Part shown: in pieces, positions 3,836-59,415 of the stretch | Numbering within the stretch: position 1 is the first letter of the stretch | Layout: each line of letters opens with the position of its first letter | Source: Deroplatys truncata | Lineage: Eukaryota; Arthropoda; Insecta; Mantodea; Mantidae | Length of the DNA stretch: 64,000 bases | Assembly (NCBI GenBank): GCA_030765065.1 | Contig: CM060990.1 | Span: 12,275,501-12,339,500, forward strand | Direction: 5' to 3' | Notes under the pieces: model-generated | What the model was told of the DNA's origin: nothing | The model's database searches: none | Seen by the model: the letters and a program-made list of their open reading frames with translations, nothing else | Made by a program: the position numbers and the translations under genes

Positions 3836-3839
3836 AAGC

Positions 3840-9840: not shown

Positions 9841-9844
9841 ACTT

Positions 9845-21645: not shown

Positions 21646-21770
21646 TCGTTCATTTCTCTCTCTGCACAGCTCCGGTAGCGGGAGGGGTCTTTGAAAGGGC
21701 AACAGTTAGGGACTTCATCGCGTCTCTGTAGTATGTCCTCCTGCAGTCTGCAACGGTTTCATCACTTCAT

Positions 21771-22235
21771 CCCTTCCTCCTCGGGGAGGTAGCCGCGACA
21801 GTTCTCCAGTAGGTAGCAGTGCCCGTGCTGTCCCTCTCCATTGTATACCCTATACTCTGTACTGTAACCTCCTGTGTGGTTTCCTCACGTCGTCCCTTCC
21901 TCCTCGGTGTGGTAGCCGCGACAGTTCTCCAGTAGGTAGCAGTGCGCATGGTGTCCCTCTCCGTTGTATACCCTATACTCTGTACTGTAACCTCCCCTGT
22001 GGTTTCCTCACGTCGTCCCTTCCTCCTCGGGGTGGTAGCCGCGACGGTTCTCCAGTAGGTCGCGGTGCGTATGCTGTCCCTCTCCGTTGCATACCCTATA
22101 CTCTGTACTGTGACCTCCTGTGTGGTTTGCTCACTTCATCCCTTCCTCCTCGGGATGGTAGCCGCGACAGTTCTCCAGTAGGTCGCAGTGCGCGTGGTGT
22201 CCCCTTCCGTTGTATACCCTATACGCGACATTTGT
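21771..22235. repeat. 123-bp tandem repeat, about 4 copies
   Basis: CCCTTCCTCCTCGG recurs at 21771, 21894, 22017 and 22140, exactly 123 bp apart. Each unit includes GTAGCCGCGACAGTTCTCCA and TGTATACCCTATACTCTGTA. As 123 is divisible by three, short periodic open frames appear on the minus strand. The array starts about 130 bp after a SINE; whether the unit derives from the SINE tail is not clear. Confidence 0.93.
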
Positions 22236-34790: not shown

Positions 34791-34794
34791 TAGC

Positions 34795-34812
34795 AGTAGT
34801 GGTAGCAGTAGC

Positions 34813-34858
<46 letters not shown>

Positions 34859-37005
34859 ATCGTAGTGGTAATAGTAGTTGTAGTAGCAGTAGTAACAGTA
34901 GCGCAAATAGCAGCAGTAGCAATAGTAGTAGCAATCGTAATGATAATAGTAGTAGTAGTTGTAGTAGCAGTAGTGGTAATAGTACTAATAGTAACAGTAG
35001 TGGCAATAGTACTAATAGTAACAGCAGTTGTAATATTACTAATAGTAACAGTAGTGATAATAGTACTAATAGTAATAGTAGTGATAATAGTACTAATAGT
35101 AACAGTAGTGATAATAGTACTAATAGTAACAGTAGTGGTAATAGTAGTAACAGTAGTACAATTTGTAGTAGCAGTAGTAGTAACAGTAGTGGCAATAGTA
35201 CTAATAGTAACAGTAGTGGCAATAGTACTAATAGTAGCAGCACTTGTAATATTACTAATATAAATAGTAGTGGTAATATTACTAATAGTAACAGTAGTGA
35301 TAATAGTACTAATAGTAACAGTAGTGGCAATAGTACTAATAGTAGCAGCACTTGTAATATTACTAATATAAATAGTAGTGGTAATATTACTAATAGTAAC
35401 AGTAGTGATAATAGTACTAATAGTAACAGTAGTGGTAATAGTACTAATAGTACAGTAGTGACAATAGTACTAATAGTAACAGTAGTGGTAATAGTACTAA
35501 TAGTAACAGTAGTGGTAATATTACTAATAGTAACAGTAGTGGTAATAGTACTAATAGTAACAGTAGTGATAATAGTACTAATAGTAACAGTAGTGGTAAT
35601 AGTACTAATAGTAACAGCAGTTGTAATATTACTAATAGTAATAGTAGTGGTAATATTACTAATAGTAACAGTAGTGATAATAGTACTAATAGTAACAGTA
35701 GTGGTAATAGTACTAATAGTAACAGTAGTGATAATAGTACTAATAGTAACAGTAGTGATAATAGTACTAATAGTAACAGTAGTGGTAATAGTACTAATAG
35801 TAACAGTAGTGGTAATAGTACTAATAGTAATAGTAGTGGTAATATTACTAATAGTAACAGTAGTGATAATAGTACTAATAGTAACAGTAGTGATAATAGT
35901 ACTAATAGTAACAGTAGTGGTAATAGTACTAATAGTAACAGTAGTGATAATAGTACTAATAGTAACAGTAGTGGTAATAGTACTAATAGTAACAGTAGTG
36001 ATAATAGTACTAATAGTAACAGTAGTGATAATAGTACTAATAGTAACAGTAGTGGTAATAGTACTAATAGTAACAGTAGTGATAATAGTACTAATAGTAA
36101 CAGTAGTGGTAATAGTAGTAACAGTAGTACAATTTGTAGTAGCAGTAGTAGTAACAGTAGTGGTAATCGTACTAATAGTAACAGCAGTTGTAATATTACT
36201 AATAGTAATAGTAGTGATAATAGTACTAATAGTAACAGTAGTGGTAATAGTAGTAACAGTAGTACAATTTGTAGTAGCAGTAGTAGTAACAGTAGTGGTA
36301 ATCGTACTAATAGTAACAGCAGTTGTAATATTACTAATAGTAATAGTAGTGGTAATATTACTAATAGTAACAGTAGTGGTAATAGTACTAATAGTAACAG
36401 TAGTGGTAATAGTACTAATAGTAACAGTAGTGGTAATAGTACTAATAGTAATAGTAGTGGTAATATTACTAATAGTAACAGTAGTGGTAATATTACTAAT
36501 AGTAATAGTAGTGGTAATATTACTAATAGTAACAGTAGTGATAATAGTACTAATAGTAACAGTAGTGATAATAGTACTAATAGTAACAGTAGTGGTAATA
36601 GTAGTAACAGTAGTACAATTTGTAGTAGCAGTAGTAGTAACAGTAGTGGTAATCGTACTAATAGTAACAGCAGTTGTAATATTACTAATAGTAATAGTAG
36701 TGGTAATATTACTAATAGTAACAGTAGTGATAATAGTACTAATAGTAACAGTAGTGGTAATAGTAGTAACAGCAGTACAATTTGTAGTAGCAGTAGTAGT
36801 AACAATAGTGGTAATAGTACTAATAGTAACAGTAGTGGTAATTGTATTAATAGTAACAGTAGTGGTAATAGCACTAACAGTAATAGTAGTAGCAGTATTA
36901 GTTGTAGTAGCAGTAGTAGCAACCGTAATGATAACAGTAGTAGTAGCAGTAATAGTAGTAGTTGTAGTAGTAGTGACAGTAATAGTAGTAGGAGTACTAG
37001 TTCGA
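34795..37005. repeat. TAG-based minisatellite, 27-bp units with longer repeats
   Basis: Starts as pure (AGT)n (about 34800-34860) and becomes a 27-bp minisatellite, AGTAACAGTAGTGGTAATAG followed by TACTAAT, with variants GATAATAG and GGTAATATT. A longer unit containing AGTACAATTTGTAGTAGCAG recurs near 35155, 36126, 36262, 36612 and 36776, showing higher-order copying. Since the unit is a multiple of three with no stops in most frames, open frames of 490-770 codons appear on both strands with poly-Leu/Val/Ile or Thr composition; these are not genes. Confidence 0.95.
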
Positions 37006-37006
37006 C

Positions 37007-37206
37007 AATCTGCTCTTAGTTCTCTTCCTTGGTGATGAATATAATGTGTTATATGTCCAATAGACGAATATTTCATGCCGCCAATGCCGGTAAGATACTC
37101 AGCCTCAAGGCGTAGCCGAGAGATTGAGGGCCCTCAGCCTCAAAGCGTAGCCGAAAGGATGTTTTTAGAAGGAAAGCCGTGTAGCAAAGAGAAGTAAGAG
37201 CAGATT
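37007..37206. mobile_element. 200-bp terminal-inverted-repeat element inside the TAG array
   Basis: AATCTGCTCTTAGTTCTCTT at 37007-37026 is mirrored by the right end, which read inverted begins AATCTGCTCTTACTTCTCTT (37206-37187); 19 of 21 positions pair. The interior has a direct repeat, CTCAGCCTCAAGGCGTAGCC near 37098 and CTCAGCCTCAAAGCGTAGCC near 37134, and is unlike the TAG repeats on both sides. This is a MITE-like insertion that splits the array at 37005/37210. A small target duplication cannot be told apart from the surrounding repeats. Confidence 0.75.
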
Positions 37207-37209
37207 TGC

Positions 37210-37238
37210 CGTATTAGTTGTAGTAGCAGTAGTAGCAA

Positions 37239-37303
<65 letters not shown>

Positions 37304-37536
37304 ACCGTAATTATAACAGTAGTAGTAGTTGTAGCAGTAGTAGTAACAGTAGTGGAAATGGTACTAATAGTAACAGTAACAGTAGTGGTAATAGTAGTAG
37401 TATTAGTTGTAATAGTAGCAGTAGTAGTGGTTGTTGTAGTAGTAATAGTTAGCAGTAGTGGTAATAATAGCAGTAGCGTAGTAGTAACAGTAGTAATAGT
37501 AACAGCAGTATTGGTAGTTGTAGTTGTCGTAGTTAC

Positions 37537-37573
<37 letters not shown>

Positions 37574-37574
37574 A

Positions 37575-37609
<35 letters not shown>

Positions 37610-37690
37610 ATGGTAACAGTATTAGTAGTAGCAGTAGTAGTAATAGTAACAGCATTAGTAGTAGTAGTTGTAGTAGTAATAGTTGTTATA
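37210..37690. repeat. TAG microsatellite at the 3' end of the R1-like element
   Basis: Runs of AGTAGTAGT with interspersed AGTAACAGT and AGTTGTAGT. It ends at 37690, where the minus-strand 3' untranslated region of the R1-like element begins (AGCTTTTTGGGGGGAGCAAG on the plus strand). Confidence 0.93.
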
Positions 37691-39258
37691 GCTTTTTGGG
37701 GGGAGCAAGGGAAAAATCTCAGAAAGGCACCCATAGGGTGAGTTGGATTCCACCAACAAAAAACCCCTGCAAGCTGTAATCGATTTCCTCTTGGAACTGC
37801 CTTGAAGTATTACTTCAAGTAGAGGAGGCTGTAGATGGTCTACATACCGATTCACACTGTCGGGGCTGCACCTCCCGTTCATCCCTCTCCTTGGCCTTAA
37901 GGGTACAGGTTATAAATTGAACAATAATTTGCTAGTTTTCCTTATTCTCCAGCACTGTCATAATAACATTGTTCGAGGTCACAACCTGACCTAATTTTTT
38001 ATAACTCTGATGACCTATGTCATTCCACTTTGAGCAATGTAAAACGGTATGGTCAGGAGTGACTGTCTGTGCGCAGCACGGACCAAGGTAAATAAGATTT
38101 AAAACGACGTGGTCGATCAGAAATTGTGTCACATAATAATCCAGATTATCATGCTTCCTAGATATCTCTTGGACCACTGAGCCGTCCTCTCTTCCTGGTT
38201 CCAATCTACCTTCCACCGTCTGATAGTTTTCTCCCTGGCCAACAGTTTTTATCTGCACGTATGCGCGTTCCTGAACAAGGAGATGGAAAGGTATGGTTCC
38301 TGCTGGAACTTGTATAACCTTCTGTAGGCACTAAAGATGCGTAGCGCAACCTTACGATGCACTCGCTCCTATATATTGCTTTATCCATGCAGGTGTTCCC
38401 AGCGGGCGCACCATAACATAATAGAGTTAGCCACGCTACCTAGGATTTTCCTTGTTTCAGGTTGGCACCGCCTATATTAGGCATTAAGCGACTCAAGGCA
38501 GCAATCACTTTCTCCGCCTTGCCAACCGTGTATTTCACGTGGACACCCATATTCATATCATGGCCAAACTGAAGACCAAGATATCTCAATTGCCTTTGAG
38601 ACCTCAATGCCACACCACCAATATTTACATTAACTTCCCTTAGGGATCGTCTTCCCTCCAAAATCACAATTTCTGTCTTCTGTAGAGCCAACTGCAATCC
38701 CTTCTTCAACATCCAGATTTCAATTTGGTGTGTAGACCATTCGATTTTATCCTCAACCTATTCTCCGGATTCTCCATGCACTAGGAGGTCCAGTACATCG
38801 GCGCATCCTATAGATGTTGTGCCCATCGGCAACTACACTCTGAATACATCATAACAGATGTTCCACAGGGTAGGTCCCAAAACTGAACCTTGTGGTACTC
38901 CGCACGTCATATCCAGATGCTTGGTATCACCTACCAAGATCATCCTATTGTTCAGATAACTACATATAATTTTGATCAGGTATGGTGCGAATTGGCGCCG
39001 CCTGAGCTCAACGATTATTCCCTTCCACGGTGCTGAATTAAAAGCAGTTTTAACATCCAGGGTCACCAGTGCCACATATATGTTAGTAAATGCCTTAGCA
39101 TCTGTCACAAAATGTAGTACACCTTGGATTGCATCAATTGTCTACACCCCCCGAAAGCCAAATTGTTTAGGTGAAAAATTTTCTCCTTCCTTTATTTCCT
39201 TGACTAATCGCATGTTGACTATATGATCCATAGGTTTGCCAAGAACATCAAGTAGACA
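37690..39258 (-). mobile_element. R1-clade non-LTR retrotransposon, 5'-truncated, inserted in TAG repeats
   Basis: The minus strand carries the C-terminal two-thirds of an R1-type ORF2 (39235 to about 37920) followed by about 200 bp of 3' untranslated sequence, ending directly at TAG/CTA repeat (37690). The other end stops at about 39258, again directly at TAG repeat of the same polarity. The 5' part (ORF1, endonuclease and the start of the reverse transcriptase) is missing, as expected of 5' truncation during target-primed reverse transcription. The 3' untranslated part shares CAGGGGTTTT, GGTG and ATCCAACTC landmarks with the segment at 41045-41100. Confidence 0.85.
37920..39235 (-). pseudogene. 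R1-type ORF2 reverse transcriptase remnant
   Basis: Minus-strand translation in one frame from about 39212: MRLVKEIKEGENFSPKQFGF, an in-frame stop (39142-39144), then AIQGVLHFVTDAKAF, the catalytic strand VTLDVKTAFNSAPWKGII (motif A), GVPQGSVLGPTLWNICYD (motif B), a stop at 38833-38835, and GCADVLDLLVHGESGE. The expected aspartate pair of motif C (F/YADD) is lost through a short in-frame deletion. After a stop at 38758-38760, LALQKTEIVILEGRRSLREV and LRSQRQLRYLGLQFGHDMNM follow (38712-38560). A frameshift near 38455 leads to LGSVANSIMLWCARWEH, and further shifts to a region ending HDNLDYYVTQFL and CAQTVTPDHTVLHCSKW, the zinc-binding C-terminus of the clade. It is inactive. Confidence 0.85.
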
Positions 39259-40600
39259 GATACTAGTTGTAGTGGTAACAGCCGTAGAAGTAGTAGTAAT
39301 AGTAACAGCAATAGTAGCTCTAGTGGCAACAGTAGTAGGGGTAGTAGCAAAAGTAGTAGTTGTAGTAGTAGCAGTAGTAATAATAGTAATAGTAGTAGGA
39401 GTAGTAGTAATAGTTGTAGTAGCCGCAGTAGTAGTAGTACTAGCAGTAGTTGTAGTAGTAATAGTAACAGCCCTAGTAGTTGTAGTGGAAACAGTAGTAG
39501 GAGTAGTAGTAATAGTTGTAGCACCAGTAATAGTAATAGTAACAGTGGTAGTAGAAGGTGTTTAGTAGTAGTAGTAGTAGCAGTAGTTGTAGTAGTAGTA
39601 GTAGTAGTAGCAGTAGTTGTAGTAGTAGTAGTAATAGTAACCGCCCTAGTAGTCGTAGTGGAAACAGTAGTAGGAGTAGTAGTAATAGTTGTAGCAGCAG
39701 TAATAGTAATAGTAACAGCAGTAGTAGCAGTAGTTGTAGTAGTAGCAGTAGTAGTAATAGTAACAACAGTAGTAGCTGTAGTGGCAACAGTAGTAGGGAT
39801 AGTAGCAACGGTAGTAGTAGTAGCAGTAGTAATAAGAGTAACAGTAGTAGGAGTATAGAAATAGTTGTAGTAGCAGTAGTAGTAGTACTAGCAGTAGTTG
39901 TAGTAGTAGTAGTAATAGTAACAGCCCTAGTAGTTGTAGTGGAAACAGTAGTAGGAGTAGTAGTAATAGTAACAGCCCTAGTAGTTGTAGTGGAAACAGT
40001 AGTAGGAGTAGTAGTAATAGTTGTAGCAGCAGTAATAGTAATAGTAACAGTGGTAGTAGAAGGTGTTTAGTAGTAGTAGTAGCAGTAGTAGTAGCAGTAG
40101 TTGTTGTAGTAGTAGTAGTAATAGTAACCGCCCTAGTAGTCGTAGTGGAAACAGTAGTAGGAGTAGTAGTAATAGTTGTAGCAGCAGTAATAGTAATAGT
40201 AACAGCAGTAGTAGCAGTAGTTGTAGTAGTAGCAGTAGTAGTAATAGTAACAGCAGTAGTAGCTGTAGTGGCAACAGTAGTAGGGATAGTAGCAACGGTA
40301 GTAGTAGTAGTAGTAGTAATAATAATAGTAACAGTAGTAGGAGTAGTAGTAATAGTCGTAGTAGCAGTAGTAGTAGTAGTACTAGCAGTAGTTGTAGCAG
40401 TAATAGTAACAGCCCTAGTAGTTGTAGTGGAAACAGTAGTAGGAGTAGTAGTAATAGTTGTAGTAGCAGTAGTAGTACTAGCAGTAGTTGTAGCAGTAAT
40501 AGTAACAGCCCTAGTAGTTGTAGTGGAAACAGTAGTAGGAGTAGTAGTAATAGTTGTAGCAGCAGTAATAGTAATAGTAACAGTGGTAGTAGAAGGTGTT

Positions 40601-40645
<45 letters not shown>

Positions 40646-40749
40646 CAGTAGTTGTAGTAGTAGTAATAGTTGTAGTAGTAATAGTAGTAGTAGTAGTAAT
40701 AGTTGTAGCAGCAGTAATAGTAATAGTAACAGTGGTAGTAGAAGGTGTT

Positions 40750-40792
<43 letters not shown>

Positions 40793-40803
40793 TGTAGTAG
40801 TAA

Positions 40804-40837
<34 letters not shown>

Positions 40838-40890
40838 TGTAGTAGTAATAGTAGCAGCAGTAGTAGCTGTAGTGGTAACAGTAGTAGGGG
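39258..40890. repeat. TAG-based microsatellite/minisatellite
   Basis: AGT-rich with interspersed AGTAACAGT, AGTTGTAGT and CCTAGTAGTTGTAGTGGAAA units. The landmark GAAGGTGTTTAGTAGTAGTA recurs near 39554, 40059, 40592 and 40741, so units of about 505, 533 and 149 bp have been copied. Open frames of 100-229 codons rich in Ser, Val or Leu on both strands are artefacts of the repeat. Confidence 0.93.
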
Positions 40891-41044
40891 TAGTAGTAAC
40901 GGTAACAGTAGTAGTTGTAATAGTAACAGTAGCAGTAGTAGTAGTTGTTTTTAAATATTACAAAGCCTAGTAGTAACGGTAACAGTAGTAGTTGTAATAG
41001 TAACAGTAGCAGTAGTAGTAGTTGTTTTTAAATATTACAAAGCC
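40891..41044. repeat. perfect 77-bp tandem duplication at an R1-like 3' junction
   Basis: Positions 40891-40967 and 40968-41044 are identical over 77 bases. Each copy holds about 55 bp of TAG repeat plus GTTTTTAAATATTACAAAGCC, the terminal sequence of the adjoining R1-like 3' end, so the repeat-element junction itself was duplicated. Confidence 0.95.
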
Positions 41045-41110
41045 GCCTCATAGCAGGCGAGTTGGATACACACCACCTAAAACCCCTGATATGCCCAGAA
41101 GGCAGCAATA
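41045..41110 (-). mobile_element. second R1-like 3' end abutting TAG repeats
   Basis: On the minus strand: CAGGGGTTTTAGGTGGTGTG then TATCCAACTCGCC, GAGGCGGCTTTGTAATATTT and TAG/CTA repeat. The element at 37690-37790 has CAGGGGTTTTTTGTTGGTGG then AATCCAACTCACC in the same order and distance from TAG repeat. No reverse transcriptase sequence is recognised to the right, so the copy is short or diverged; its right boundary is uncertain. Confidence 0.65.
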
Positions 41111-42860
41111 GTGTGCACGTGTGGTAAGTTCAAGCGGAGTCAAATATACAATGTGTTAGGCGAGCGATACCGACTTGGACGCTAGTTTCGTATCAACGTC
41201 CTTACGTAACTACGGAAGCAGACATTGCTGATGGCAAGCTTTCGCTCCTCGTGAGAAATGTGGGTGGTTGTCTCAATGGTTTCCGAGATTCTAGACGCTA
41301 CTCAAGTGTTTTTCTCTATCATGTGAAGGAACTTTGTTGTTCAACTGCTGAATGGAAACGTCCACAACGTCACGATCGAAATGAAAGAATAGGTTCCAAG
41401 TCACAGAACGATTGAGACGCGCTTTGTCTGCAAAATTAGATGTAGTGTCCTTACCGACATCCGGCCGACAACAAACAAGATAAGAGTGATTGGAAAGATT
41501 AATGTACACATGCATGTAGGTAATGCTAAGTTTACTCCATTGCGCCACACTAAATAAACTCAATAATCGGGATACTTTTCTAAATATTCTTTTTTTCTAT
41601 AAATGCAGCCTAGGAGCAAGCAATAACTGATGCTTATGAGACGCTATACTTATTATTAGAACAGCCATTCACCCAAAATGAGAGCATTTTATTGGATTTA
41701 GGGGAAACATCACGCAAATAAGTACCTTGAAGCTTTCAGTGTTGTTTCTAAGAACGAGGTTGTAGCTATTGAAGCAGAATTACTATTACAGGATGTTACA
41801 AAACAAATTGTGGTTTCTATTTGTTAAATTTCTAACGAAACATTAGGTTCTGAGCATAAAAAGTTTGTCTCTTGTCCAGCGACATAATTCCTTTATCCGT
41901 TTTCATTGCACAGAAGAAATAAACCATATGCACCAAGGAAACGAGCACGATTCAGAGATGTAGTCTTAATGTCTTTTCAGATTGTTTCAATTCCCTTTTA
42001 GCAACTCATATCTACGGAGACTAAATAAAATCGCCGGGATGTTGCTCAACTGAGCTGAGAGTAACCCGACATTTCACCGATGGGAATAAGAGAACAACAC
42101 GAAATAAACTTTATCCAAGCAATACACCTCAACCAAGATTCGAACACCGGCACACGTAAACCTAGCCTCAATAATTTTGCCTTCAGATACTCAAATTTGC
42201 CGAAATAAGACCCAGTACTTCTGAAATTAATGAATAGTTTTGTCCCTGCGCAGTTCTCATTAAGTAAAAGTATTGTGCATTGTAATACGCATCTCTGTGT
42301 ACGTACGTTGATATTGTGCAATTTGAACAACTGATGATTCCTCTGTTATATTCAACCTTCCTTTTCAGTCTGCTCAAGAGTTTGGGAATCGATTTGATTC
42401 TTGAAATCGTGGAGAGGACCAGCTTCAGCCAGGGGAATGTTTTGTCAACATTACTTTGTTTCCATGCCGTGCTCGATAGTCCTACAGAGTTTGCTTTTTG
42501 ACAGACGATATAAGTCCAGAAAAACATATCTCCTAATTTATTATCGAAAGGTATGACTAATGCTGTAATACCATAAGTAAATCAATAAATAAGTAAACAA
42601 ATTAATACAGAGTTAAAACGGAACCGTATTATTGAGTTTGATTTTGCTTTGTTTGTTTCAAAATAGTGTAAAATTATCGTTATCCTTATTGCCAAATGAA
42701 AACATACTCATGGTTTATCGGAACACTTCATTTTTTCTTGCTTTGTCAGAATATCTTTCATATTTTCTGCTGCGTTTTCTCATATATGTCCGTTATTTGC
42801 GCATGAACCATTATGATTCATTCATTCATTATCTGTTTACCCTCCTCTTATGTACGACTT
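41110..42860. other. unassigned region
   Basis: AT-rich, without recognised genes or tandem repeats. Open frames of 90-115 codons at 41291-41563, 42183-42527 and 42632-42979 show no domain; the last runs into the SINE that follows. Confidence 0.35.
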
Positions 42861-44712: not shown

Positions 44713-45899
44713 CTGTAAAACATGGAGGTGGTGTGCGGTTTGTAGCAGTTTCTGTATAACATGGAGGTGGTGTGCGGTTTGTAGCAGTTTCTGTATAACA
44801 TGGAGGTGGTGTGCGGTTTGTAGCAGTTTCTGTAAAACATGGAGGTGGTGTGCGGTTTGTAGCAGTTTCTGTATAACATGGAGGTGGTGTGCGGTTTGTA
44901 GCAGTTTCTGTATAACATGGAGGTGGTGTGCGGTTTGTAGCAGTTTCTGTAAAACATGGAGGTGGTGTGCGGTTTGTAGCAGTTTCTGTATAACATGGAG
45001 GTGGTGTGCGGTTTGTAGCAGTTTCTGTATAACATGGAGGTGGTGTGCGGTTTGTAGCAGTTTCTGTATAACATGGAGGTGGTGTGGGGTTTGTAGCAGT
45101 TTCTGTATAACATGGAGGTGGTGTGGGGTTTGTAACAGTTTCTGTATAACATGGAGGTGGTGTGGGGTTTGTAACAGTTTCTGTATAACATGGAGGTGGT
45201 GTGCGGTTTGTAGCAGTTTCTGTATAACATGGAGGTGGTGTGGGGTTGGTAGCAGTTTCTGTATAACATGGAGGTGGTGTGGGGTTTGTAACAGTTTCTG
45301 TATAACATGGAGGTGGTGTGGGGTTTGTAACAGTTTCTGTATAACATGGAGGTGGTGTGAGGTTTGTAACAGTTTCTGTATAACATGGAGGTGGTGAGCG
45401 GTTTGTAGCAGTTTCTGTATAACATGGAGGTGATGTGGGGTTTGTAGCAGTTTCTGTATAACACGGAGGTGGTGTGGGGTTTGTAGCAGTTTCTGTATAA
45501 CATGGAGGTGGTGTGGGGTTTGTAGCAGTTTCTGTATAACATGGAGGTGGTGTGGGGTTTGTAACAGTTTCTGTATAACACGGAGGTGGTGTGGGGTTTG
45601 TAGCAGTTTCTGTATAACACGGAGGTGGTGTGGGGTTTGTAGCAGTTTCTGTATAACACGGAGGTGGTGTGCGGTTTGTAGCAGTTTCTGTATAACATGG
45701 AGGTGGTGTGGGGTTTGTAACAGTTTCTGTATAACATGGAGGTGGTGTGGGGTTTGTAGCAGTTTCTGTATAACATGGAGGTGGTGTGGGGTTTGTAACA
45801 GTTTCTGTATAACATGGAGGTGGTGAGCGGTTTGTAGCAGTTTCTGTATAACATGGAGGTGGTGTGGGGTTTGTAACAGTTTCTGTATAACATGGAGGT

Positions 45900-48800
45900 G
45901 GTGTGGGGTTTGTAACAGTTTCTGTATAACATGGAGGTGGTGTGGGGTTTGTAACAGTTTCTGTATAACATGGAGGTGGTGTGGGGTTTGTAACAGTTTC
46001 TGTATAACATGGAGGTGGTGAGCGGTTTGTAGCAGTTTCTGTATAACATGGAGGTGGTGTGGGGTTTGTAACAGTTTCTGTATAACATGGAGGTGGTGTG
46101 CGGTTTGTAGCAGTTTCTGTATAACATGGAGGTGGTGTGGGGTTTGTAGCAGCTTCTGTATAACATGGAGGTGGTGAGCGATTTGAAGCAGTTTCTGTAT
46201 AACATGGAGGTGGTTTGGGGTTTGTAGCAGTTTCTGTATAACATGGAGGGGTGTGCGGTTTGAAACAGTTTCTGTATAACATGAAGGTGGTGTGGGGTTT
46301 GTAGCAGTTTCTGTATAACATGGAGGGGTGTGCGGTTTGAAACAGTTTCTGTATAACATGAAGGTGGTGTGGGGTTTGTAGCAGATTCTGTATAACATGG
46401 AGGTGGTGTGGGGTTTGTAACAGTTTCTGTATAACATGGAGGTGGTGTGGGATTTGTAGCAGTTTCTGTATAACATACAGGTGGTGTGAGGTTTGTAACA
46501 GTTTCTGTATAACATGGAGGTGGTGTGGGATTTGTAGCAGTTTCTGTATAACATAGAGGTGATGTGGGGTTTGTAACAGTTTCTGTATAACATAGAGGTG
46601 GTGTGGGATTTGTAGCAGTTTCTGTATAACATACAGGTGGTGTGAGGTTTGTAACAGTTTCTGCATAACATGGAGGTGGTGGGCGGTTTGTAGCAGTTGC
46701 TGTATAACATGGAGGTGGTGTGCGGTTTGTAACAGTTTCTGTATAACATGGAGGTGGTGTGGGGTTTGTAGCACATTCTGTATAACAGGGAGGTGGTGTG
46801 GGGTTTGTAGCAGATTCTGTATAACATGGAGGTGGTGTCCGGTTTGTAACAGTTTCTGTATAACATGGAGGTGGCGTGGGGTAGGTAGCAGATTCTGTAT
46901 AACATGGAGGTGGTGTGCGGTTTGTAACAGTTTCTGTATAACATGGAGGTGGTGTGGGGTTTGTAGCAGTTTCTGTATAACATGGAGGTGGTGTGCGGTT
47001 TGTAACAGTTTCTGTATAACATGGAGGTGGGTGGGGTTTGTAGCAGATTCTGTATAACATGGAGGTAGTGTGGGATTTGTAGCAGTTTCTGTATAACATA
47101 GAGGTGGTGTGGGACTTGTAGCAGTTTCTGTATAACATGGAGGTGGTGTGGGATTTGTAGCAACTTCTGTATAACATGGAGGTGGTGTGGGGTTTGTAAC
47201 AGTTTCTGTATAACATGGAGGTGGTGTGGAATTTGTAGCAGGTTATGTATAAGATAGAGGTGGTGTGCGATTTGTAGCAGGTTCTGTATAACATGGAGGT
47301 GGTGTGGGGTTTGTAACAGTTTCTGTATAACATGGAGGTGGTGTGGGATTTGTAGCAGTTTCTGTATAACATGGAGGTGGTGTGGGATTTGTAACAGTTT
47401 CTGTATAACATAGAGGTGTTGTGGGATTTGTAGCAGTTTCTGTATAACATGGAGGTGGTGTGGGATTTGTAGCAGTTTCTGTATAACATGGAGGTGGTGT
47501 GAGCTTTGTAACAGTTTCTGTATAACATAGAGGTGGTATGGGATTTGTAGCAGGTTCTGTATAAGATAGAGGTGGTGTGCGATTTGTAGCAGGTTCTGTA
47601 GAACATGGAGGTGGTGTGGGATTTGTAGCAGTTTCTGTATAACATGGAGGTGGTGTGGGATTTGTAGCAGTTTCTGTATAACATGGAGGTGGTGTGGGAT
47701 TTGTAGCAGTTTCTATATAACATGGAGGTGGTGTGGGATATGTAGCAGTTTCTGTATAACATGGAGGTGGTGTGGGGTTTGTAACAGTTTCTGTATAACA
47801 TGGAGGTGGTGTGGGATTTGTAGCAGATTCTGTATAACATTGAGGTGGTGTGGGATTTGTAGCAGTTTCTGTATAACATGGAAGTGGTGTGGGATTTGTA
47901 GCAGTTTCTGTATAACATGCAGGGGGTCTGGGATTTGCAGCAGTTTCTGTATAACATAGAGGTGGTGTGGGGTTTGTAACAGTTTCTGTATAACATGGAG
48001 GTGGTGTGGGATTTGTAGCAGGTTCTGTATAAGATAGAGCTGGTGTGCGATTTGTAGCAGGTTCTGTATAACATGAAGGTGGTGTGGGGTTTGTAACAGT
48101 TTCTGTATAACATAGAGGTGGTGTGGGATTTGTAGCAGTTACTGTATAACATGGAGGTGGTGTGAGATTTGTAACAGTTTCTGTATAACATGGAGGTGTT
48201 GTAAAGTTTGTAACAGTTTCTGTATAACATTGAGGTAGTCTGGGGTTTGTAGCAGTTTCTGTATAACATGGAGGTGGTGTGGGATTTGTAGCAGTTTCTG
48301 TGTAACATACAGGTGGTGTGGGGTTTGTAGCAGTTTCTGTATAACACAGAGGTGCTGTTAGATTTGAAGCAGTTTCTGTATAACATGGAGGTGGTGTGGG
48401 GTTTGTAGCAGTTTCTGTATAAAATTCAGGTGGTGTGGGATTTTTACGAGCTTCTGCATAACATGGAGGTGGTGTGGGGTTTGTAGCAGTTTCGGTATAA
48501 CATAGAGGTGGTGTGGGATTTGAGGCAGTTTGTGTATAACATGGAGATGGTGTGGGATTTGTAGCAGTTTCTGTATAACATGGAGGTGGTGTGAGATTTG
48601 TAGCAGTTTCTGCATAACATGGAGATGGTGTGGGATTTGTGGCAGTTTCTGTATAACATGGAAGTCGTGTGGGATCTGTAGCAACTACTGTATAACATGG
48701 AGGTGGTGTGGGGTTCGTAGCAGTTTCTATATAACATGGAGGTGGTGTGGGAATTGTAGCCGTTTCTGTATAACATGGAGGTGGTGTGGGATATGTAGCG

Positions 48801-51800
48801 GTTTCTGTATAACATGGAGGTGGTGTGGGGTTTGTAACAGTTTCTGTATAACACGGAGGTGGTGTGGGATTTGTAGCAGTTTCTGTATAACATAATGGTG
48901 GTGTGGGATTTGTAGCAGTTTCTGTATAACATAGAGGTGGTGTGGGATTTGTAGCAGTTTCTGTATAACATGGAGGTGGTGTGGGGTTTGTAACAGTTTC
49001 TGTTTAACATGGAGGGGGTGTGGGGTTTGTAACAGTTTCTGTATAACATGGAGGTGGTGTGGGGTTTGTAACAGTTTCTGTATAACATGGAGGTGGTGTG
49101 GGGTTTGTAACAGTTTCTGTATAACATGGAGGTGGTGAGCGGTTTGTAGCAGTTTCTGTATAACATGGAGGTGGTGTGGGGTTTGTAACAGTTTCTGTAT
49201 AACATGGAGGTGGTGTGCGGTTTGTAGCAGTTTCTGTATAACATGGAGGTGGTGTGGGGTTTGTAGCAGCTTCTGTATAACATGGAGGTGGTGAGCGATT
49301 TGAAGCAGTTTCTGTATAACATGGAGGTGGTTTGGGGTTTGTAGCAGTTTCTGTATAACATGGAGGGGTGTGCGGTTTGAAACAGTTTCTGTATAACATG
49401 AAGGTGGTGTGGGGTTTGTAGCAGTTTCTGTATAACATGGAGGGGTGTGCGGTTTGAAACAGTTTCTGTATAACATGAAGGTGGTGTGGGGTTTGTAGCA
49501 GATTCTGTATAACATGGAGGTGGTGTGGGGTTTGTAACAGTTTCTGTATAACATGGAGGTGGTGTGGGATTTGTAGCAGTTTCTGTATAACATACAGGTG
49601 GTGTGAGGTTTGTAACAGTTTCTGTATAACATGGAGGTGGTGTGGGATTTGTAGCAGTTTCTGTATAACATAGAGGTGATGTGGGGTTTGTAACAGTTTC
49701 TGTATAACATAGAGGTGGTGTGGGATTTGTAGCAGTTTCTGTATAACATACAGGTGGTGTGAGGTTTGTAACAGTTTCTGCATAACATGGAGGTGGTGGG
49801 CGGTTTGTAGCAGTTGCTGTATAACATGGAGGTGGTGTGCGGTTTGTAACAGTTTCTGTATAACATGGAGGTGGTGTGGGGTTTGTAGCACATTCTGTAT
49901 AACAGGGAGGTGGTGTGGGGTTTGTAGCAGATTCTGTATAACATGGAGGTGGTGTCCGGTTTGTAACAGTTTCTGTATAACATGGAGGTGGCGTGGGGTA
50001 GGTAGCAGATTCTGTATAACATGGAGGTGGTGTGCGGTTTGTAACAGTTTCTGTATAACATGGAGGTGGTGTGGGGTTTGTAGCAGTTTCTGTATAACAT
50101 GGAGGTGGTGTGCGGTTTGTAACAGTTTCTGTATAACATGGAGGTGGGTGGGGTTTGTAGCAGATTCTGTATAACATGGAGGTAGTGTGGGATTTGTAGC
50201 AGTTTCTGTATAACATAGAGGTGGTGTGGGACTTGTAGCAGTTTCTGTATAACATGGAGGTGGTGTGGGATTTGTAGCAACTTCTGTATAACATGGAGGT
50301 GGTGTGGGGTTTGTAACAGTTTCTGTATAACATGGAGGTGGTGTGGAATTTGTAGCAGGTTATGTATAAGATAGAGGTGGTGTGCGATTTGTAGCAGGTT
50401 CTGTATAACATGGAGGTGGTGTGGGGTTTGTAACAGTTTCTGTATAACATGGAGGTGGTGTGGGATTTGTAGCAGTTTCTGTATAACATGGAGGTGGTGT
50501 GGGATTTGTAACAGTTTCTGTATAACATAGAGGTGTTGTGGGATTTGTAGCAGTTTCTGTATAACATGGAGGTGGTGTGGGATTTGTAGCAGTTTCTGTA
50601 TAACATGGAGGTGGTGTGAGCTTTGTAACAGTTTCTGTATAACATAGAGGTGGTATGGGATTTGTAGCAGGTTCTGTATAAGATAGAGGTGGTGTGCGAT
50701 TTGTAGCAGGTTCTGTAGAACATGGAGGTGGTGTGGGATTTGTAGCAGTTTCTGTATAACATGGAGGTGGTGTGGGATTTGTAGCAGTTTCTGTATAACA
50801 TGGAGGTGGTGTGGGATTTGTAGCAGTTTCTATATAACATGGAGGTGGTGTGGGATATGTAGCAGTTTCTGTATAACATGGAGGTGGTGTGGGGTTTGTA
50901 ACAGTTTCTGTATAACATGGAGGTGGTGTGGGATTTGTAGCAGATTCTGTATAACATTGAGGTGGTGTGGGATTTGTAGCAGTTTCTGTATAACATGGAA
51001 GTGGTGTGGGATTTGTAGCAGTTTCTGTATAACATGCAGGGGGTCTGGGATTTGCAGCAGTTTCTGTATAACATAGAGGTGGTGTGGGGTTTGTAACAGT
51101 TTCTGTATAACATGGAGGTGGTGTGGGATTTGTAGCAGGTTCTGTATAAGATAGAGCTGGTGTGCGATTTGTAGCAGGTTCTGTATAACATGAAGGTGGT
51201 GTGGGGTTTGTAACAGTTTCTGTATAACATAGAGGTGGTGTGGGATTTGTAGCAGTTACTGTATAACATGGAGGTGGTGTGAGATTTGTAACAGTTTCTG
51301 TATAACATGGAGGTGTTGTAAAGTTTGTAACAGTTTCTGTATAACATTGAGGTAGTCTGGGGTTTGTAGCAGTTTCTGTATAACATGGAGGTGGTGTGGG
51401 ATTTGTAGCAGTTTCTGTGTAACATACAGGTGGTGTGGGGTTTGTAGCAGTTTCTGTATAACACAGAGGTGCTGTTAGATTTGAAGCAGTTTCTGTATAA
51501 CATGGAGGTGGTGTGGGGTTTGTAGCAGTTTCTGTATAAAATTCAGGTGGTGTGGGATTTTTACGAGCTTCTGCATAACATGGAGGTGGTGTGGGGTTTG
51601 TAGCAGTTTCGGTATAACATAGAGGTGGTGTGGGATTTGAGGCAGTTTGTGTATAACATGGAGATGGTGTGGGATTTGTAGCAGTTTCTGTATAACATGG
51701 AGGTGGTGTGAGATTTGTAGCAGTTTCTGCATAACATGGAGATGGTGTGGGATTTGTGGCAGTTTCTGTATAACATGGAAGTCGTGTGGGATCTGTAGCA

Positions 51801-52133
51801 ACTACTGTATAACATGGAGGTGGTGTGGGGTTCGTAGCAGTTTCTATATAACATGGAGGTGGTGTGGGAATTGTAGCCGTTTCTGTATAACATGGAGGTG
51901 GTGTGGGATATGTAGCGGTTTCTGTATAACATGGAGGTGGTGTGGGGTTTGTAACAGTTTCTGTATAACACGGAGGTGGTGTGGGATTTGTAGCAGTTTC
52001 TGTATAACATAATGGTGGTGTGGGATTTGTAGCAGTTTCTGTATAACATAGAGGTGGTGTGGGATTTGTAGCAGTTTCTGTATAACATGGAGGTGGTGTG
52101 GGGTTTGTAACAGTTTCTGTTTAACATGGAGGG
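45900..52133. repeat. 3,117-bp segmental tandem duplication within the 39-bp array
   Basis: Two adjacent blocks, about 45900-49016 and 49017-52133, carry the same order of unit variants at an offset of 3,117 bp, equal to 80 units of 39 minus 3. Three 38-bp units in each block explain the shortfall. Rare markers match at this offset, such as the CACATTCTGTATAACAGGGA unit (46772 and 49889), the 38-bp units, and TGTTAGATTTGAAGCAG (48356 and 51473). I saw no differences in the marker units compared, so the duplication is recent or an assembly duplication. A further partial copy, about 51240-51890, recurs at 52490-53140 (offset 1,248 bp, 32 units). Confidence 0.9.
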
Positions 52134-52239
52134 GGTGTGGGATTTGTAGCAGTTTCTGTTTAACATGGAGGTGGTGTGGGGTTTGTAACAGTTTCTGTAT
52201 AACATGGAGGTGGTGTGGGGTTTGTAGCAGTTTCTGTAT

Positions 52240-55200
52240 AACATGGAGGTGGTGTGGGATTTGTAGCAGTTTCTGTATAACATAGAGGTGGTGTGGGATT
52301 TGTAGCAGTTTCTGTATAACATGCAGGGGGTGTGGGATTTGTAGCAGTTTCTGTATAACATAGAGGTGGTGTGGGATTTGTAGCAGTTTCTGTATAAAAT
52401 GGAGGCGGTGTGGGATTTGTAGCAGTTTCTGAATAACATAGAGGTGGTGTGGGATTTGTAGCAGTTTCTGTATAACATAGAGGTGGTGTGGGATTTGTAG
52501 CAGTTACTGTATAACATGGAGGTGGTGTGAGATTTGTAACAGTTTCTGTATAACATGGAGGTGTTGTAAAGTTTGTAACAGTTTCTGTATAACATTGAGG
52601 TAGTCTGGGGTTTGTAGCAGTTTCTGTATAACATGGAGGTGGTGTGGGATTTGTAGCAGTTTCTGTGTAACATACAGGTGGTGTGGGGTTTGTAGCAGTT
52701 TCTGTATAACACAGAGGTGCTTTTAGATTTGAAGCAGTTTCTGTATAACATGGAGGTGGTGTGGGGTTTGTAGCAGTTTCTGTATAAAATTCAGGTGGTG
52801 TGGGATTTTTACGAGCTTCTGTATAACATGGAGGTGGTGTGGGGTTTGTAGCAGTTTCGGTATAACATAGAGGTGGTGTGGGATTTGAGGCAGTTTGTGT
52901 ATAACATGGAGATGGTGTGGGATTTGTAGCAGTTTCTGTATAACATGGAGGTGGTGTGAGATTTGTAGCAGTTTCTGTATAACATGGAGATGGTGTGGGA
53001 TTTGTGGCAGTTTCTGTATAACATGGAAGTCGTGTGGGATCTGTAGCAACTACTGTATAACATGGAGGTGGTGTGGGGTTCGTAGCAGTTTCTATATAAC
53101 ATGGAGGTGGTGTGGGAATTGTAGCCGTTTCTGTATAACATGGAGTTGGTGTGGAATTTGTAGCAGTTTCGGTATAACATGGAGTTGGTGTGGAATTTGT
53201 AGCATTTTCGGTATAAGATAGAGGTGGTGTGGGGTGTGTAGCGGTTTTTGTGTAACATGGAGGTGGTGTAGGACTTGTAGCAGTTTCTGTATAACATGGA
53301 GGTGGTGTGGGTTTTGTAGCAGTTTCTGTATAACATGGAGGTGGCGTGGGGTGTGTAGCGGTTTCTGTGTAACATGGAGGTGGTGTAGGACTTGTAGCAG
53401 TTTCTGTATAACATGGAGGTGGTGTGGGTTTTGTAGCATTTTCGGTATAACATACAGGTGGTGTGGGGTGTGTAGCAGTTTCTGTATAACATGGAGGTGG
53501 TGTGGGGTGTGTAGCGGTTTCTGTGTAACATGGAGGTGGTGTGGGATTTGTAGCAGTTTCTGTATAACATAGAGGTGGTGTGGGATTTTAGCAGTTTCTG
53601 TATAACATGCAGCGGGTGTGGGATTTGTAGCAGTTTCTGTATAACATAGAGGTGGTGTGGGATTTGTAGCAGTTTCTGTATACCATGGAGTAGGTGTGTG
53701 ATTTGTAGCAGTTTCTGAATAACATAGAGGTGGTGTGGGATTTGTAGCAGTTTCTGTATAACATAGAGGTGGTGTGGGATTTGTAGCAGTTACTGTATAA
53801 CATGGAGGTGTTGTAAGGTTTGTAACAGTTTCTGTAAAACATGGAGGTAGTCTGGGGTTTGTAGCAGCTTCTGTATAACATGGAGGTGGTGTGGGATTTG
53901 TAGCAGTTTCTGTATAACATGGAGGGTGTGTGGGATTTGAGCAGTTTCTGTTTAACATGGAGGTGGTGTGGGGTTTGTAACCGTTTCTGTATAAAATGGG
54001 GGTGGTGTGGGGTTTGTAGCAGTTTCTGTATAACATGGAGGTGGTGTGGGATTTGTGGCAGTTTCTGTATAACATAGGGGTGGTGTGGGATTTGTAGCAG
54101 TTTCTGTATAACATGCAGGGGGTGTGGGATTTGTAGCAGTTTCTGTATAACATAGAGGTGGTGTGGGATTTGTAGCAGTTTCTGTATAACATGGAGGTGG
54201 TGTGAGATTTGTAGCAGTTTCTGTATAACATGGAGATGGTGTGGGATTTGTAGCAGTTTCTGTATAACATTGAAGTCGCGTGGGATCTGTAGCAACTACT
54301 GTATAACATGGAGGTGGTGTGGGGTTCGTAGCAGTTTCTATATAACATGCAGGTGGTGTGGGAATTGTAGCCGTTTCTGTATAACACGGAGTTGGTGTAG
54401 AATTTGTAGCAGTTTCGGTATAACATGGAGTTGGTGTGGGTTTTGTAGCAGTTTCTGTATAACATGGAGGTGGTGTGGGGTGTGTAGCGGTTTCTGTGTA
54501 ACATGGAGGTGGTGTAGGACTTGTAGCAGTTTCTGTATAACATGGAGGTGGTGTGGGTTTTGTAGCAGTTTCTGTATAACATGGAGGTGGTGGGGGTGTG
54601 TAGCGGTTTCTGTGTAACATGGAGGTGGTGTAGGACTTGTAGCAGTTTCTGTATAACATGGAGGTGGTGTGGGTTTTGTAGCATTTTCGGTATAACACAG
54701 AGGTGGTGTGGGGTGTGTAGCAGTTTCTGTATAACATGGTGGTGTTGTGGGGTGTGTAGCGGTTTCTGTGTAACATGGAGGTGGTGTAGGACTTGTAGCA
54801 GTTTCTGTATAACATGGAGGTGGTGTGGGTTCTGTAGCAGTTTCTGTATAACATGGAGGTGATGTGGGATTTGTAACAGTTTCTGTACAACATGGCGGTG
54901 GTGTGGGATTTGAAGCAGTTTCTGTTTATAATGGAGGTGGTGTGGGGTTTGTAACAATTTCTGTATAACATGGAGGTGGTGTGGGGTTTGTAGCAGTTTC
55001 TGTATAACATGGAGGTGGTGTGGCATTTGTAGCAGTTTCTGTATAACATAGAGGTGGTGTGGGATTTGTAGCAGTTTCTGTATAACATGCAGGGGGTGTG
55101 GGATTTGTAGCAGTTTCTGTATAACATAGAGGTGGTGTGGGATTTGTAGCAGTTTCTGTATAAAATGGAGGGGGTGTGGGATTTGTAGCAGTTTCTGTAT

Positions 55201-58200
55201 AACATGGAAGTAGTCTGGGGTTTGTAGCAGTTTCTGTGCAACATACAGGTGGTGTGGGGTTTGTAGCAGTTTCTGTATAACACAGAGGTGCTGTGAGATT
55301 TGAAGCAGTTTCTGTATAACATGGAGATGGTGTGGGGTTTGTAGCAGTTTCTGTATAAAATTCAGGTGGTGTGGGATTTTATACCAGTTTCTGTATAACA
55401 TGGAGGTGGTGTGGGGTTTGTAGCAGATTCGGTATAACATAGAGGTGGTGTGGGATTTGAGGCAGTTTCTGTATAACATGGAGATGGTGTGGGATTTGTA
55501 GCAGTTTCTGTATAACATGGAGGTGGTGTGAGATTTGTAGGAGTTTCTGTTTCACATGGAGATGGTGTGGGATTTGTAGCAGTTTCTGTATAACATAGAA
55601 GTCGTGTGGGATCTGTAGCAACTACTGTATAACATGGAGTTTGTGTGGGGTTCGTAGCAGTTTCTGTATAACATGGAGGTGGTGTGGGATTGTAGCCGTT
55701 TCTGTATAACATGGAGTTGGTGTGGAATTTGTAGCAGTTTCGGTATAACATGGAGTTGGTGTGGAATTTGTAGCATTTTCGGTATAACATAGACGTGGTG
55801 TGGGGTGTGTAGCGGTTTCTGTGTAACATGGAGGTGGTGTAGGACTTGTAGCAGTTTCTGTATAACATGGAGGTGGTGTGGGTTTTGTAGCAGTTTCTGT
55901 ATAACATGGAGGTGGTGTGGGATTTGTAGCAGTTTCTGTATAACATAGAGGTGGTGTGGGATTTGTAGCAGTTTCTGTATAACATGCAGGGGGTGTGGGA
56001 TTTGTAGCAGTTTCTGTATAACATAGAGGTGGTGTGGGATTTGTAGCAGTTTCTGTATAAAATGGAGGCGGTGTGGGATTTGTAGCAGTTTCTGAATAAC
56101 ATAGAGGTGGTGTGGGATTTGTAGCAGTTTCTGTATAACATAGAGGTGGTGTGGGATTTGTAGCAGTTACTGTATAACATGGAGGTGGTGTGAGATTTGT
56201 AACAGTTTCTGTATAACATGGAGGTGTTGTAAAGTTTGTAACAGTTTCTGTATAACATTGAGGTAGTCTGGGGTTTGTAGCAGTTTCTGTATAACATGGA
56301 GGTGGTGTGGGATTTGTAGCAGTTTCTGTGTAACATACAGGTGGTGTGGGGTTTGTAGCAGTTTCGGTATAACATAGAGGTGGTGTGGGATTTGAGGCAG
56401 TTTGTGTATAACATGGAGATGGTGTGGGATTTGTAGCAGTTTCTGTATAACATGGAGGTGGTGTGAGATTTGTAGCAGTTTCTGTATAACATGGAGATGG
56501 TGTGGGATTTGTGGCAGTTTCTGTATAACATGGAAGTCGTGTGGGATCTGTAGCAACTACTGTATAACATGGAGGTGGTGTGGGGTTCGTAGCAGTTTCT
56601 ATATAACATGGAGGTGGTGTGGGAATTGTGGCCGTTTCTGTATAACATGGAGTTGGTGTGGAATTTGTAGCAGTTTCGGTATAACATGGAGTTGGTATGG
56701 AATTTGTAGCATTTTCGGTATAAGATAGAGGTGGTGTGGGGTGTGTAGCGGTTTTTGTGTAACATGGAGGTGGTGTAGGACTTGTAGCAGTTTCTGTATA
56801 ACATGGAGGTGGTGTGGGTTTTGTAGCAGTTTCTGTATAACATGGAGGTGGCGTGGGGTGTGTAGCGGTTTCTGTGTAACATGGAGGTGGTGTAGGACTT
56901 GTAGCAGTTTCTGTATAACATGGAGGTGGTGTGGGTTTTGTAGCATTTTCGGTATAACATACAGGTGGTGTGGGGTGTGTAGCAGTTTCTGTATAACATG
57001 GAGGTGGTGTGGGGTGTGTAGCGGTTTCTGTGTAACATGGAGGTGGTGTGGGATTTGTAGCAGTTTCTGTATAACATAGAGGTGGTGTGGGATTTTAGCA
57101 GTTTCTGTATAACATGCAGCGGGTGTGGGATTTGTAGCAGTTTCTGTATAACATAGAGGTGGTGTGGGATTTGTAGCAGTTTCTGTATACCATGGAGTAG
57201 GTGTGTGATTTGTAGCAGTTTCTGAATAACATAGAGGTGGTGTGGGATTTGTAGCAGTTTCTGTATAACATAGAGGTGGTGTGGGATTTGTAGCAGTTAC
57301 TGTATAACATGGAGGTGTTGTAAGGTTTGTAACAGTTTCTGTATAACATGGAGGTAGTCTGGGGTTTGTAGCAGCTTCTGTATAACATGGAGGTGGTGTG
57401 GGATTTGTAGCAGTTTCTGTATAACATGGAGGGGGTGTGGGATTTGAGCAGTTTCTGTTTAACATGGGGGTGGTGTGGGGTTTGTAACCGTTTCTGTATA
57501 ACATGGGGGTGGTGTGGGGTTTGTAGCAGTTTCTGTATAACATGGAGGTGGTGTGGGATTTGTGGCAGTTTCTGTATAACATAGGGGTGGTGTGGGATTT
57601 GTAGCAGTTTCTGTATAACATGCAGGGGGTGTGGGATTTGTAGCAGTTTCTGTATAACATAGAGGTGGTGTGGGATTTGTAGCAGTTTCTGTATAACATG
57701 GAGGTGGTGTGAGATTTGTAGCAGTTTCTGTATAACATGGAGATGGTGTGGGATTTGTAGCAGTTTCTGTATAACATTGAAGTCGCGTGGGATCTGTAGC
57801 AACTACTGTATAACATGGAGGTGGTGTGGGGTTCGTAGCAGTTTCTATATAACATGCAGGTGGTGTGGGAATTGTAGCCGTTTCTGTATAACACGGAGTT
57901 GGTGTAGAATTTGTAGCAGTTTCGGTATAACATGGAGTTGGTGTGGGTTTTGTAGCAGTTTCTGTATAACATGGAGGTGGTGTGGGGTGTGTAGCGGTTT
58001 CTGTGTAACATGGAGGTGGTGTAGGACTTGTAGCAGTTTCTGTATAACATGGAGGTGGTGTGGGTTTTGTAGCAGTTTCTGTATAACATGGAGGTGGTGG
58101 GGGTGTGTAGCGGTTTCTGTGTAACATGGAGGTGGTGTAGGACTTGTAGCAGTTTCTGTATAACATGGAGGTGGTGTGGGTTTTGTAGCATTTTCGGTAT

Positions 58201-59415
58201 AACACAGAGGTGGTGTGGGGTGTGTAGCAGTTTCTGTATAACATGGTGGTGTTGTGGGGTGTGTAGCGGTTTCTGTGTAACATGGAGGTGGTGTAGGACT
58301 TGTAGCAGTTTCTGTATAACATGGAGGTGGTGTGGGTTCTGTAGCAGTTTCTGTATAACATGGAGGTGATGTGGGATTTGTAACAGTTTCTGTACAACAT
58401 GGCGGTGGTGTGGGATTTGAAGCAGTTTCTGTTTATAATGGAGGTGGTGTGGGGTTTGTAACAATTTCTGTATAACATGGAGGTGGTGTGGGGTTTGTAG
58501 CAGTTTCTGTATAACATGGAGGTGGTGTGGGATTTGTAGCAGTTTCTGTATAACATAGAGGTGGTGTGGGATTTGTAGCAGTTTCTGTATAACATGCAGG
58601 GGGTGTGGGATTTGTAGCAGTTTCTGTATAACATAGAGGTGGTGTGGGATTTGTAGCAGTTTCTGTATAAAATGGAGGGGGTGTGGGATTTGTAGCAGTT
58701 TCTGTATAACATGGAAGTAGTCTGGGGTTTGTAGCAGTTTCTGTGCAACATACAGGTGGTGTGGGGTTTGTAGCAGTTTCTGTATAACACAGAGGTGCTG
58801 TGAGATTTGAAGCAGTTTCTGTATAACATGGAGATGGTGTGGGGTTTGTAGCAGTTTCTGTATAAAATTCAGGTGGTGTGGGATTTTATACCAGTTTCTG
58901 TATAACATGGAGGTGGTGTGGGGTTTGTAGCAGATTCGGTATAACATAGAGGTGGTGTGGGATTTGAGGCAGTTTCTGTATAACATGGAGATGGTGTGGG
59001 ATTTGTAGCAGTTTCTGTATAACATGGAGGTGGTGTGAGATTTGTAGGAGTTTCTGTTTCACATGGAGATGGTGTGGGATTTGTAGCAGTTTCTGTATAA
59101 CATAGAAGTCGTGTGGGATCTGTAGCAACTACTGTATAACATGGAGTTTGTGTGGGGTTCGTAGCAGTTTCTGTATAACATGGAGGTGGTGTGGGATTGT
59201 AGCCGTTTCTGTATAACATGGAGTTGGTGTGGAATTTGTAGCAGTTTCGGTATAACATGGAGTTGGTGTGGAATTTGTAGCATTTTCGGTATAACATAGA
59301 CGTGGTGTGGGGTGTGTAGCGGTTTCTGTGTAACATGGAGGTGGTGTAGGACTTGTAGCAGTTTCTGTATAACATGGAGGTGGTGTGGGTTTTGTAGCAG
59401 TTTCTGTATAACATG
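52240..59415. repeat. about 3.5-kb segmental tandem duplication within the 39-bp array
   Basis: Blocks of about 52240-55908 and 55909-59415 match at an offset of 3,507 bp (90 units minus 3) from about 52850 onward, and at 3,663 bp before that. The right block lacks 156 bp (four units) present around 52700-52850. A few single-base differences exist between blocks, for example near 53870 versus 57377, so this duplication looks somewhat older than the 3,117-bp one. Confidence 0.85.

Follow-up and report, generated by a model that had tools for sequence, protein, structure and literature searches.

The window analysed here is a stretch of 64,000 nucleotides from the mantis Deroplatys truncata (contig C16, positions 12275501-12339500; the genome has 4.29 Gb in 818 contigs), and it carries a 5'-truncated and decayed copy of a long interspersed nuclear element (LINE) that is embedded in a degenerate TAG trinucleotide repeat (Table 1). 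The element lies on the minus strand, and the repeats are described below as they read on the element strand, where TAG becomes ACT or CTA. The broken frames of the element run from the reverse transcriptase (RT) region, with the motif GVPQGSVLGP, to the apparent C-terminal end of the second open reading frame (ORF2), and are followed by a 3' untranslated region (UTR) of approximately 239 bases, which ends in AAAAA at about position 37693 and is continued directly by GCTATAACAACTATTACTACTACAACTACTACTAC. On the 5' side the homology to other copies of the family starts at about 39262, while longer copies match further upstream, and the DNA upstream of this point is a degenerate CTA repeat with the same polarity as the repeat on the 3' side. 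A first reading of the window, made from its letters alone (the sequence-only reading), had placed the junction between the 3' UTR and the TAG repeat at 37690 and that between the truncated 5' end and a TAG repeat of the same polarity at about 39258, and both positions are right within a few bases. The array extends for more than 1.6 kb on either side of the element, and the limits given for it by Tandem Repeats Finder (TRF) are 34791-37683 and 39284-40945.

The sequence-only reading had also reported a second 3' end of the element at 41045. This second end is real in that a fragment next to the array matches the 3' terminus of two other copies of the family (L010 and L023) with 75-77% over 53-61 bp, but it comprises only 59 bp with unique DNA upstream. 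No match to the family was found upstream of the fragment, and a search of the genome with positions 41040-41560 returned this stretch only.

Table 1 The LINE copy, its flanking repeats and the second 3' end in the window.
Feature	Positions	Strand	Basis
5'-truncated, decayed LINE copy, part of the RT to the end of ORF2 plus 3' UTR	37693-39262	minus	matches to other copies
3' UTR ending in A5	37693-37931	minus	last ORF2-type frame stops at 37932-37934
Putative target on the 3' side, a degenerate repeat reading (ACT)n on the element strand and TAG on the plus strand	34791-37692	minus	TRF and trinucleotide profile
Putative 5'-flanking target, degenerate (ACT)n, same polarity	39263-40958	minus	TRF and trinucleotide profile
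59-bp relative of the family, 3' end only, abutting the same array	41030-41088	minus	blastn to the 3' ends of the family
Two tandem copies of 77 bp, comprising the last bases of the fragment and the adjoining repeat	40891-40967, 40968-41044	minus	100% self-match over 77 bp

For quantification of the association between element and repeat, copies of the family were collected with the 3' 711 bases of the element as the query. The search produced 146 candidates genome-wide, of which 40, the window copy included, were scored and all found significant; 20 of the 40 were fetched with long flanks and the other 19 as short stretches. A 30-base pattern with at most three mismatches occurred at 50 places, its reversed control having no match, and the 18 matches outside the first 40 were fetched as well, giving a total of 58 copies. 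The 3' side was read in all 58, and the 5' junction was resolved in 44 and not in the remaining 14. A flank was scored positive when it contained a tract with at least five in-phase AC dinucleotides in 30 bases, located within 100 bases on the 3' side or within 80 bases on the 5' side; such tracts are called ACY tracts, Y being C or T. Background windows kept a distance of at least 500 bases to the 5' junction. Three copies were not used for the 5' count, namely L009 and L014, which continue beyond other insertions, and L025, whose start may not be its true end. For the same count the ends of L016 and L023 were shifted, and L033 and L044 were newly included. Extra 3'-end fragments (the 59-bp fragment of the window and those at L013, L026 and L024) stand outside the 58, and L012, L040 and L086, which cluster within 77 kb of a single contig and have a common flank, are counted singly.

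The sequence-only reading had suggested that the 3' ends and 5' junctions of all copies should be tabulated, and that its proposal of a repeat target would fall if most of the other copies ended in unrelated sequence or poly(A). It is clear from the tabulation that most copies end differently, since an in-phase ACY tract of the same polarity is present in the 3' flank of 36 of the 58 copies and a tract of opposite polarity in one (L082). On the 5' side the same-polarity tract is found in just below half of the resolved copies (21/44) and the opposite polarity in none of the 44. When both sides are considered, 16 of the 44 resolved copies have the tract on both, 5 on the 5' side only, 10 on the 3' side only and 13 on neither, so that at least one flank carries the tract in 31/44, and opposite polarity is seen in 1 of 102 flanks. 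The background from all 20 long loci was 52/846 by the 3' measure and 57/1055 by the 5' measure (Fisher p 3e-25 and 3e-14, respectively). Without three loci with long 5' arrays it was 15/776 (3') and 12/967 (5'). A first version of the background had omitted the window, L010, L013 and L028 (long 5' arrays), and also L009, L014 and L025. Removal of the window copy and two of the three clustered copies left 34/55 (3') and 20/42 (5'), the 18 pattern-found copies by themselves gave 9/18 and 4/11, and a smaller first count, in which L009, L014 and L025 were scored as having non-repeat 5' flanks, had given 27/40 and 15/34. When the measure was applied to the window without its TAG region, 4 of 716 windows were positive for AC and 29 of 716 for GT.

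At its usual terminus the element reads CCTGCCTT; a short A-rich run comes next, and the repeat begins only after it. A script recognised the A-run in 50 of the 58 copies, and beyond the last A of the run the sequence follows a three-base period in the order A-C-Y, with C in second place in 29 of these 50. Because a short poly(A) usually separates the 3' UTR from the repeat, the repeat is more likely the target than the tail of the element. Furthermore, the repeat beyond the A-run differs from copy to copy, being pure CTA, CCA, degenerate ACN or sometimes of CTG or AAT types, and therefore resembles target sequence and not a templated tail. The TAG/CTA trinucleotide repeat that the sequence-only reading had named as the target is in this respect too narrow: the tracts of one polarity bear it out, but the target is wider and takes in ACC, CTG-like and degenerate ACN repeats. 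L037 and L044 have 3' ends that are cut short, yet they still end in a tract, and an 11-base match is found at the junction of L022, whose 3' end is likewise cut short. Several copies have short tracts beside them (e.g. L036), and short tracts seem to suffice as a target. We also considered a conserved RNA structure at the 3' end, and rejected it as evidence because base pairing across the family was no better than in shuffled sequences, hairpins being predicted in single copies only.

One copy, L017, has no array at all, and its A-run of A8-9 is directly followed by a perfect 13-bp target duplication, ACTTGTCCCAAAA. The 5' junction has two extra bases. The site reads CATCT|ACTTG, which corresponds to AGT^AG on the strand that would be nicked. 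The duplication of 13 bp in this sole clean off-target copy is to be compared with approximately 14 for R1; inside repeats the length of a duplication is undefinable.

Two members of the family are inserted at the same position of another interspersed repeat, each in a different copy of it. L011, with approximately 2.3 kb of element, and L092, with approximately 0.1 kb, have homologous flanks on both sides, and because the lengths of element are very different we regard them as separate events. The host repeat (L093-L112), which has an internal ACT/AAT tract, gave 194 candidates, of which 40 were scored. Twenty further copies of it were fetched, and 17 of these match both flanks better than shuffled controls do and lack an element at the site (L096, L102 and L108 exceed the controls only narrowly), while L101, L103 and L105 fail on the left flank. 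ACTACT is present at the site in 7 of the 17 element-free copies (e.g. L095, GAAATTACTACTAATAATAACG), and L112 carries a long ACT run without any element. A right-polarity ACT tract can thus stand at the site when the element is absent, the copies being relatives of the site and not an orthologous empty allele. The filled sites in L011 and L092 have longer ACT/ACC/CTG tracts than most of the element-free copies, and for this reason growth of the tract, before or after insertion, is likely. A second host repeat is suggested by L085 and L090, whose flanks, directly past the tracts, match with 77% over 167 bases.

Repeated hits are seen in other places as well. The window, L013 and L026 each have a second 3'-end fragment of about 60-115 bases upstream of the same array and in the same orientation as the first. 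The 5' flank of L018 includes 226 bp of degenerate repeat that recur with 77% approximately 350 bp 3' of the element, beyond a tract.

The assignment of the family was analyzed with the domains found in its longer copies. The endonuclease piece of L028 is PF14529 (4.6e-12), the apurinic type, and against the PDB it matched TRAS1 only (E=5.5e-4). A two-piece endonuclease profile gave TRAS1 with E=9e-11, followed by four R1 entries including R1Bm (E 0.012-0.021), and no L1 endonuclease was listed at E<=1, where the TRAS1 and R1 entries were the only LINE endonucleases. The RT is PF00078, and its PDB matches are weak, none of them being LINEs. The frame of L010 taken as the first open reading frame (ORF1) contains zf-CCHC (2.3e-7), and further CCHC-like motifs are visible by eye; CCHC zinc knuckles in ORF1 are typical of the R1 clade and common to Jockey and I. 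Membership of the R1 clade, as the sequence-only reading had it, is likely, the match of the endonuclease to TRAS1 and then to R1 being its one basis.

What has to be accounted for is the set of observations made above, namely the junctions with their polarity and phase, the split repeat, the poly(A), the tract at some element-free copies and the one off-target duplication. We consider it quite probable that they stem from an R1/TRAS-type family of retrotransposons without long terminal repeats (non-LTR) that uses target-primed reverse transcription to insert into (ACY)n in one orientation, with a nick at AGT^AGT. We infer that the ORF2 endonuclease would determine the target by nicking the AGT-repeat strand at the T^A step (AGT^AGT), and that the 3' end of the nick would serve as primer for reverse transcription of the element RNA from its poly(A) end, which would produce the order element, poly(A), ACTACT. 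The other strand would be joined upstream, mostly after 5' truncation, so that the microsatellite would be split with its polarity kept. As short tracts would be enough, copies could also enter microsatellites inside other repeats. An asymmetric footprint like that of TRAS1 would favour tracts on the 3' side, and the counts lean that way, not significantly.

A number of observations weigh against this interpretation. At the 3' side 22 of 58 copies fall below the threshold, and 13 of 44 do so on both sides. These 13 include L020, L021 and L022, in which the 3' termini are lost, six copies with short or related tracts (L011, L023, L034, L036, L076 and L079) and the off-target copy L017, and three further ones, L027, L078 and L091, that look like ordinary sites with no tract on either side. 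L082 has an AGT/TGG tract of opposite polarity on its 3' side. One-sided tracts are found 10 times at the 3' and 5 times at the 5' side (p=0.30), and a 3' bias is possible. The ACT contents of the two flanks were only weakly correlated (rho 0.34, p=0.19; n=16, from a set of 20 picked by hand), which is a null result. Furthermore, the DNA upstream of the second fragment is non-array in the window, L013 and L026, and a further 3' end in L024 lies in opposite orientation approximately 1 kb off, with no tract after it. Among the element-free copies of the host repeat, 10/17 lack ACTACT and have AAT-type or single-ACT tracts. Finally, the copies that were read are old and broken, with no intact enzyme among them.

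It is possible, and we hold it tentatively, that the insertions took place at short ACT-like sites and that the arrays grew later, in which case the long arrays would be secondary. Most of the element-free host copies have a short tract of ACTACT or AAT type and the filled copies a longer one, and the short tracts beside several copies point in the same direction, but the element-free L112 already has its long ACT run, and the array of the window reaches far to each side of the element. Such growth is compatible with, and not opposed to, integration into (ACY)n.

A different origin of the repeat would be the element itself, if a CTA tail arising at the end of reverse transcription or by slippage created or lengthened the 3' microsatellite. 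RTE elements of Lepidoptera provide a precedent (PMC2887409), 10 of 44 copies have the tract on the 3' side only, and the best point in favour is the second fragments of the window, L013 and L026, with non-array DNA upstream and array downstream, together with the flank repeat of L018. We nevertheless find this origin improbable and rejected it as the principal explanation, since the usual tail is poly(A) and not CTA, the off-target L017 passes from its A-run into the duplication with no CTA, tracts are present on the 5' side in 21 of 44 copies (and only there in 5), and ACTACT stands at 7 of the 17 element-free copies of the L011/L092 site. Other exact flank matches of at least 9 bp are made of repeat or are short (L020 with 10 bp and L022 with its 11 bp at the junction). 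The chance that a site-indifferent LINE in a genome rich in ACT microsatellites would produce the pattern by coincidence is negligible and is rejected by polarity and background counts. ACY tracts are indeed common, in about 5-6% of the background windows when all long loci are counted and in 1-2% when the three are left out, but the Fisher values above were obtained against the higher background and the polarity is the same in all tract-bearing flanks except one.

Among the copies, L010 (1-8781) is the sole one read to the apparent start of the 5' UTR, CAGGGGGCACACAG, which comes directly after CTA repeat. It is without segments of approximately 900, 120 and 65 bp that are present in other copies, and it carries other insertions; the stretches of L009 that correspond to these gaps have no obvious GT-AG ends. 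The window is rich in tandem repeats. The TAG array on the 3' side of the element is interrupted at 37007-37206 by 200 bp that resemble a miniature inverted-repeat transposable element, their terminal inverted repeats of 20 bp being 95% complementary. It also contains a 27-bp higher-order unit at 34814-36890 (approximately 77 copies, 85% matches). A 39-bp satellite with strong GC skew occupies 16.7 kb at 44713-61439 (approximately 429 copies), and tandem blocks at 1-686, 2069-3843, 6753-9844, 11953-12574, 14870-18343 and 21755-22224 have units of 372, 109/131, 86, 154, 47 and 123 bp, respectively.

To our knowledge only few targets of R1-clade elements are known. Waldo is an R1-clade element specific for microsatellites, and Mino, of the same clade, is found in AC repeats (PMC3124438). 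Microsatellite-targeting elements of the R1 clade are thus already known, and the ACT/ACY target was not found in print: excerpts of the papers searched named no retrotransposon targeting ACT, CTA or TAG repeats, and the primary descriptions of R1-clade targets, which were outside the search, may name one. The family reads a three-base unit, tolerates variants of it and has hit one site twice, and it therefore offers a large set of natural junctions for deriving a recognition rule. It may represent a step between telomere-specific and dispersed LINEs, and ACT microsatellites in such genomes may be hot spots for retrotransposons.

The nearest solved endonuclease is that of TRAS, an R1-clade element of the telomere of Bombyx (CCTAA/TTAGG), which cuts at the same T^A step before AG as in the AGT^AG proposed here. 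The TRAS1 endonuclease nicks TT^AGG, GTTAG is essential, positions 7 bases upstream and 3 downstream matter, and a swap of endonuclease domains between TRAS1 and SART1 exchanges the targets (PMC7265360). TRAS differs in having a telomeric target, whereas the family here is found in a trinucleotide microsatellite on many contigs with a much laxer specificity; no TTAGG array was seen by eye in the printed junctions, no telomere search having been made. It is conceivable, if rather unlikely, that an endonuclease of the TRAS type exchanged TTAGG for TAG as its target, with the T^AG nick step preserved and the rest of the recognition relaxed, which would turn a telomere specialist into a dispersed microsatellite element. 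Insertions of such an element would anchor long TAG arrays, that of the window among them, and give them a polarity. SART1Bm, also of the R1 clade, likewise enters its repeat in one orientation, and SART joins poly(A) to the telomere repeat, but the repeat is telomeric TTAGG, of which at least three units were needed in the assay described (PMC7265360), whereas L017 has only CTACT. R1 itself has a target duplication of 14 bases, and of 2-14 off target (PMC2718515).

Outside the R1 clade, Dong of the R4 lineage, which is a non-LTR element too, has a TAA repeat at its 5' junction (PMC3774820), but the R4 clade uses a restriction-like endonuclease (PMC4640811) and the family here the apurinic type (PF14529). 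The RTE elements of Lepidoptera resemble the family in that their 3' ends are regularly located beside microsatellites, with the difference that the repeat is inside the 3' UTR of the element. Here the element ends in CCTGCCTT and the A-run, the repeat that follows is variable, and the tract is present at some element-free sites. Mino and Waldo are R1-clade elements that likewise reside in simple repeats, and although the repeat is a different one, the family described here shares with elements of this kind that most of its copies lie in a like repeat with fixed polarity.

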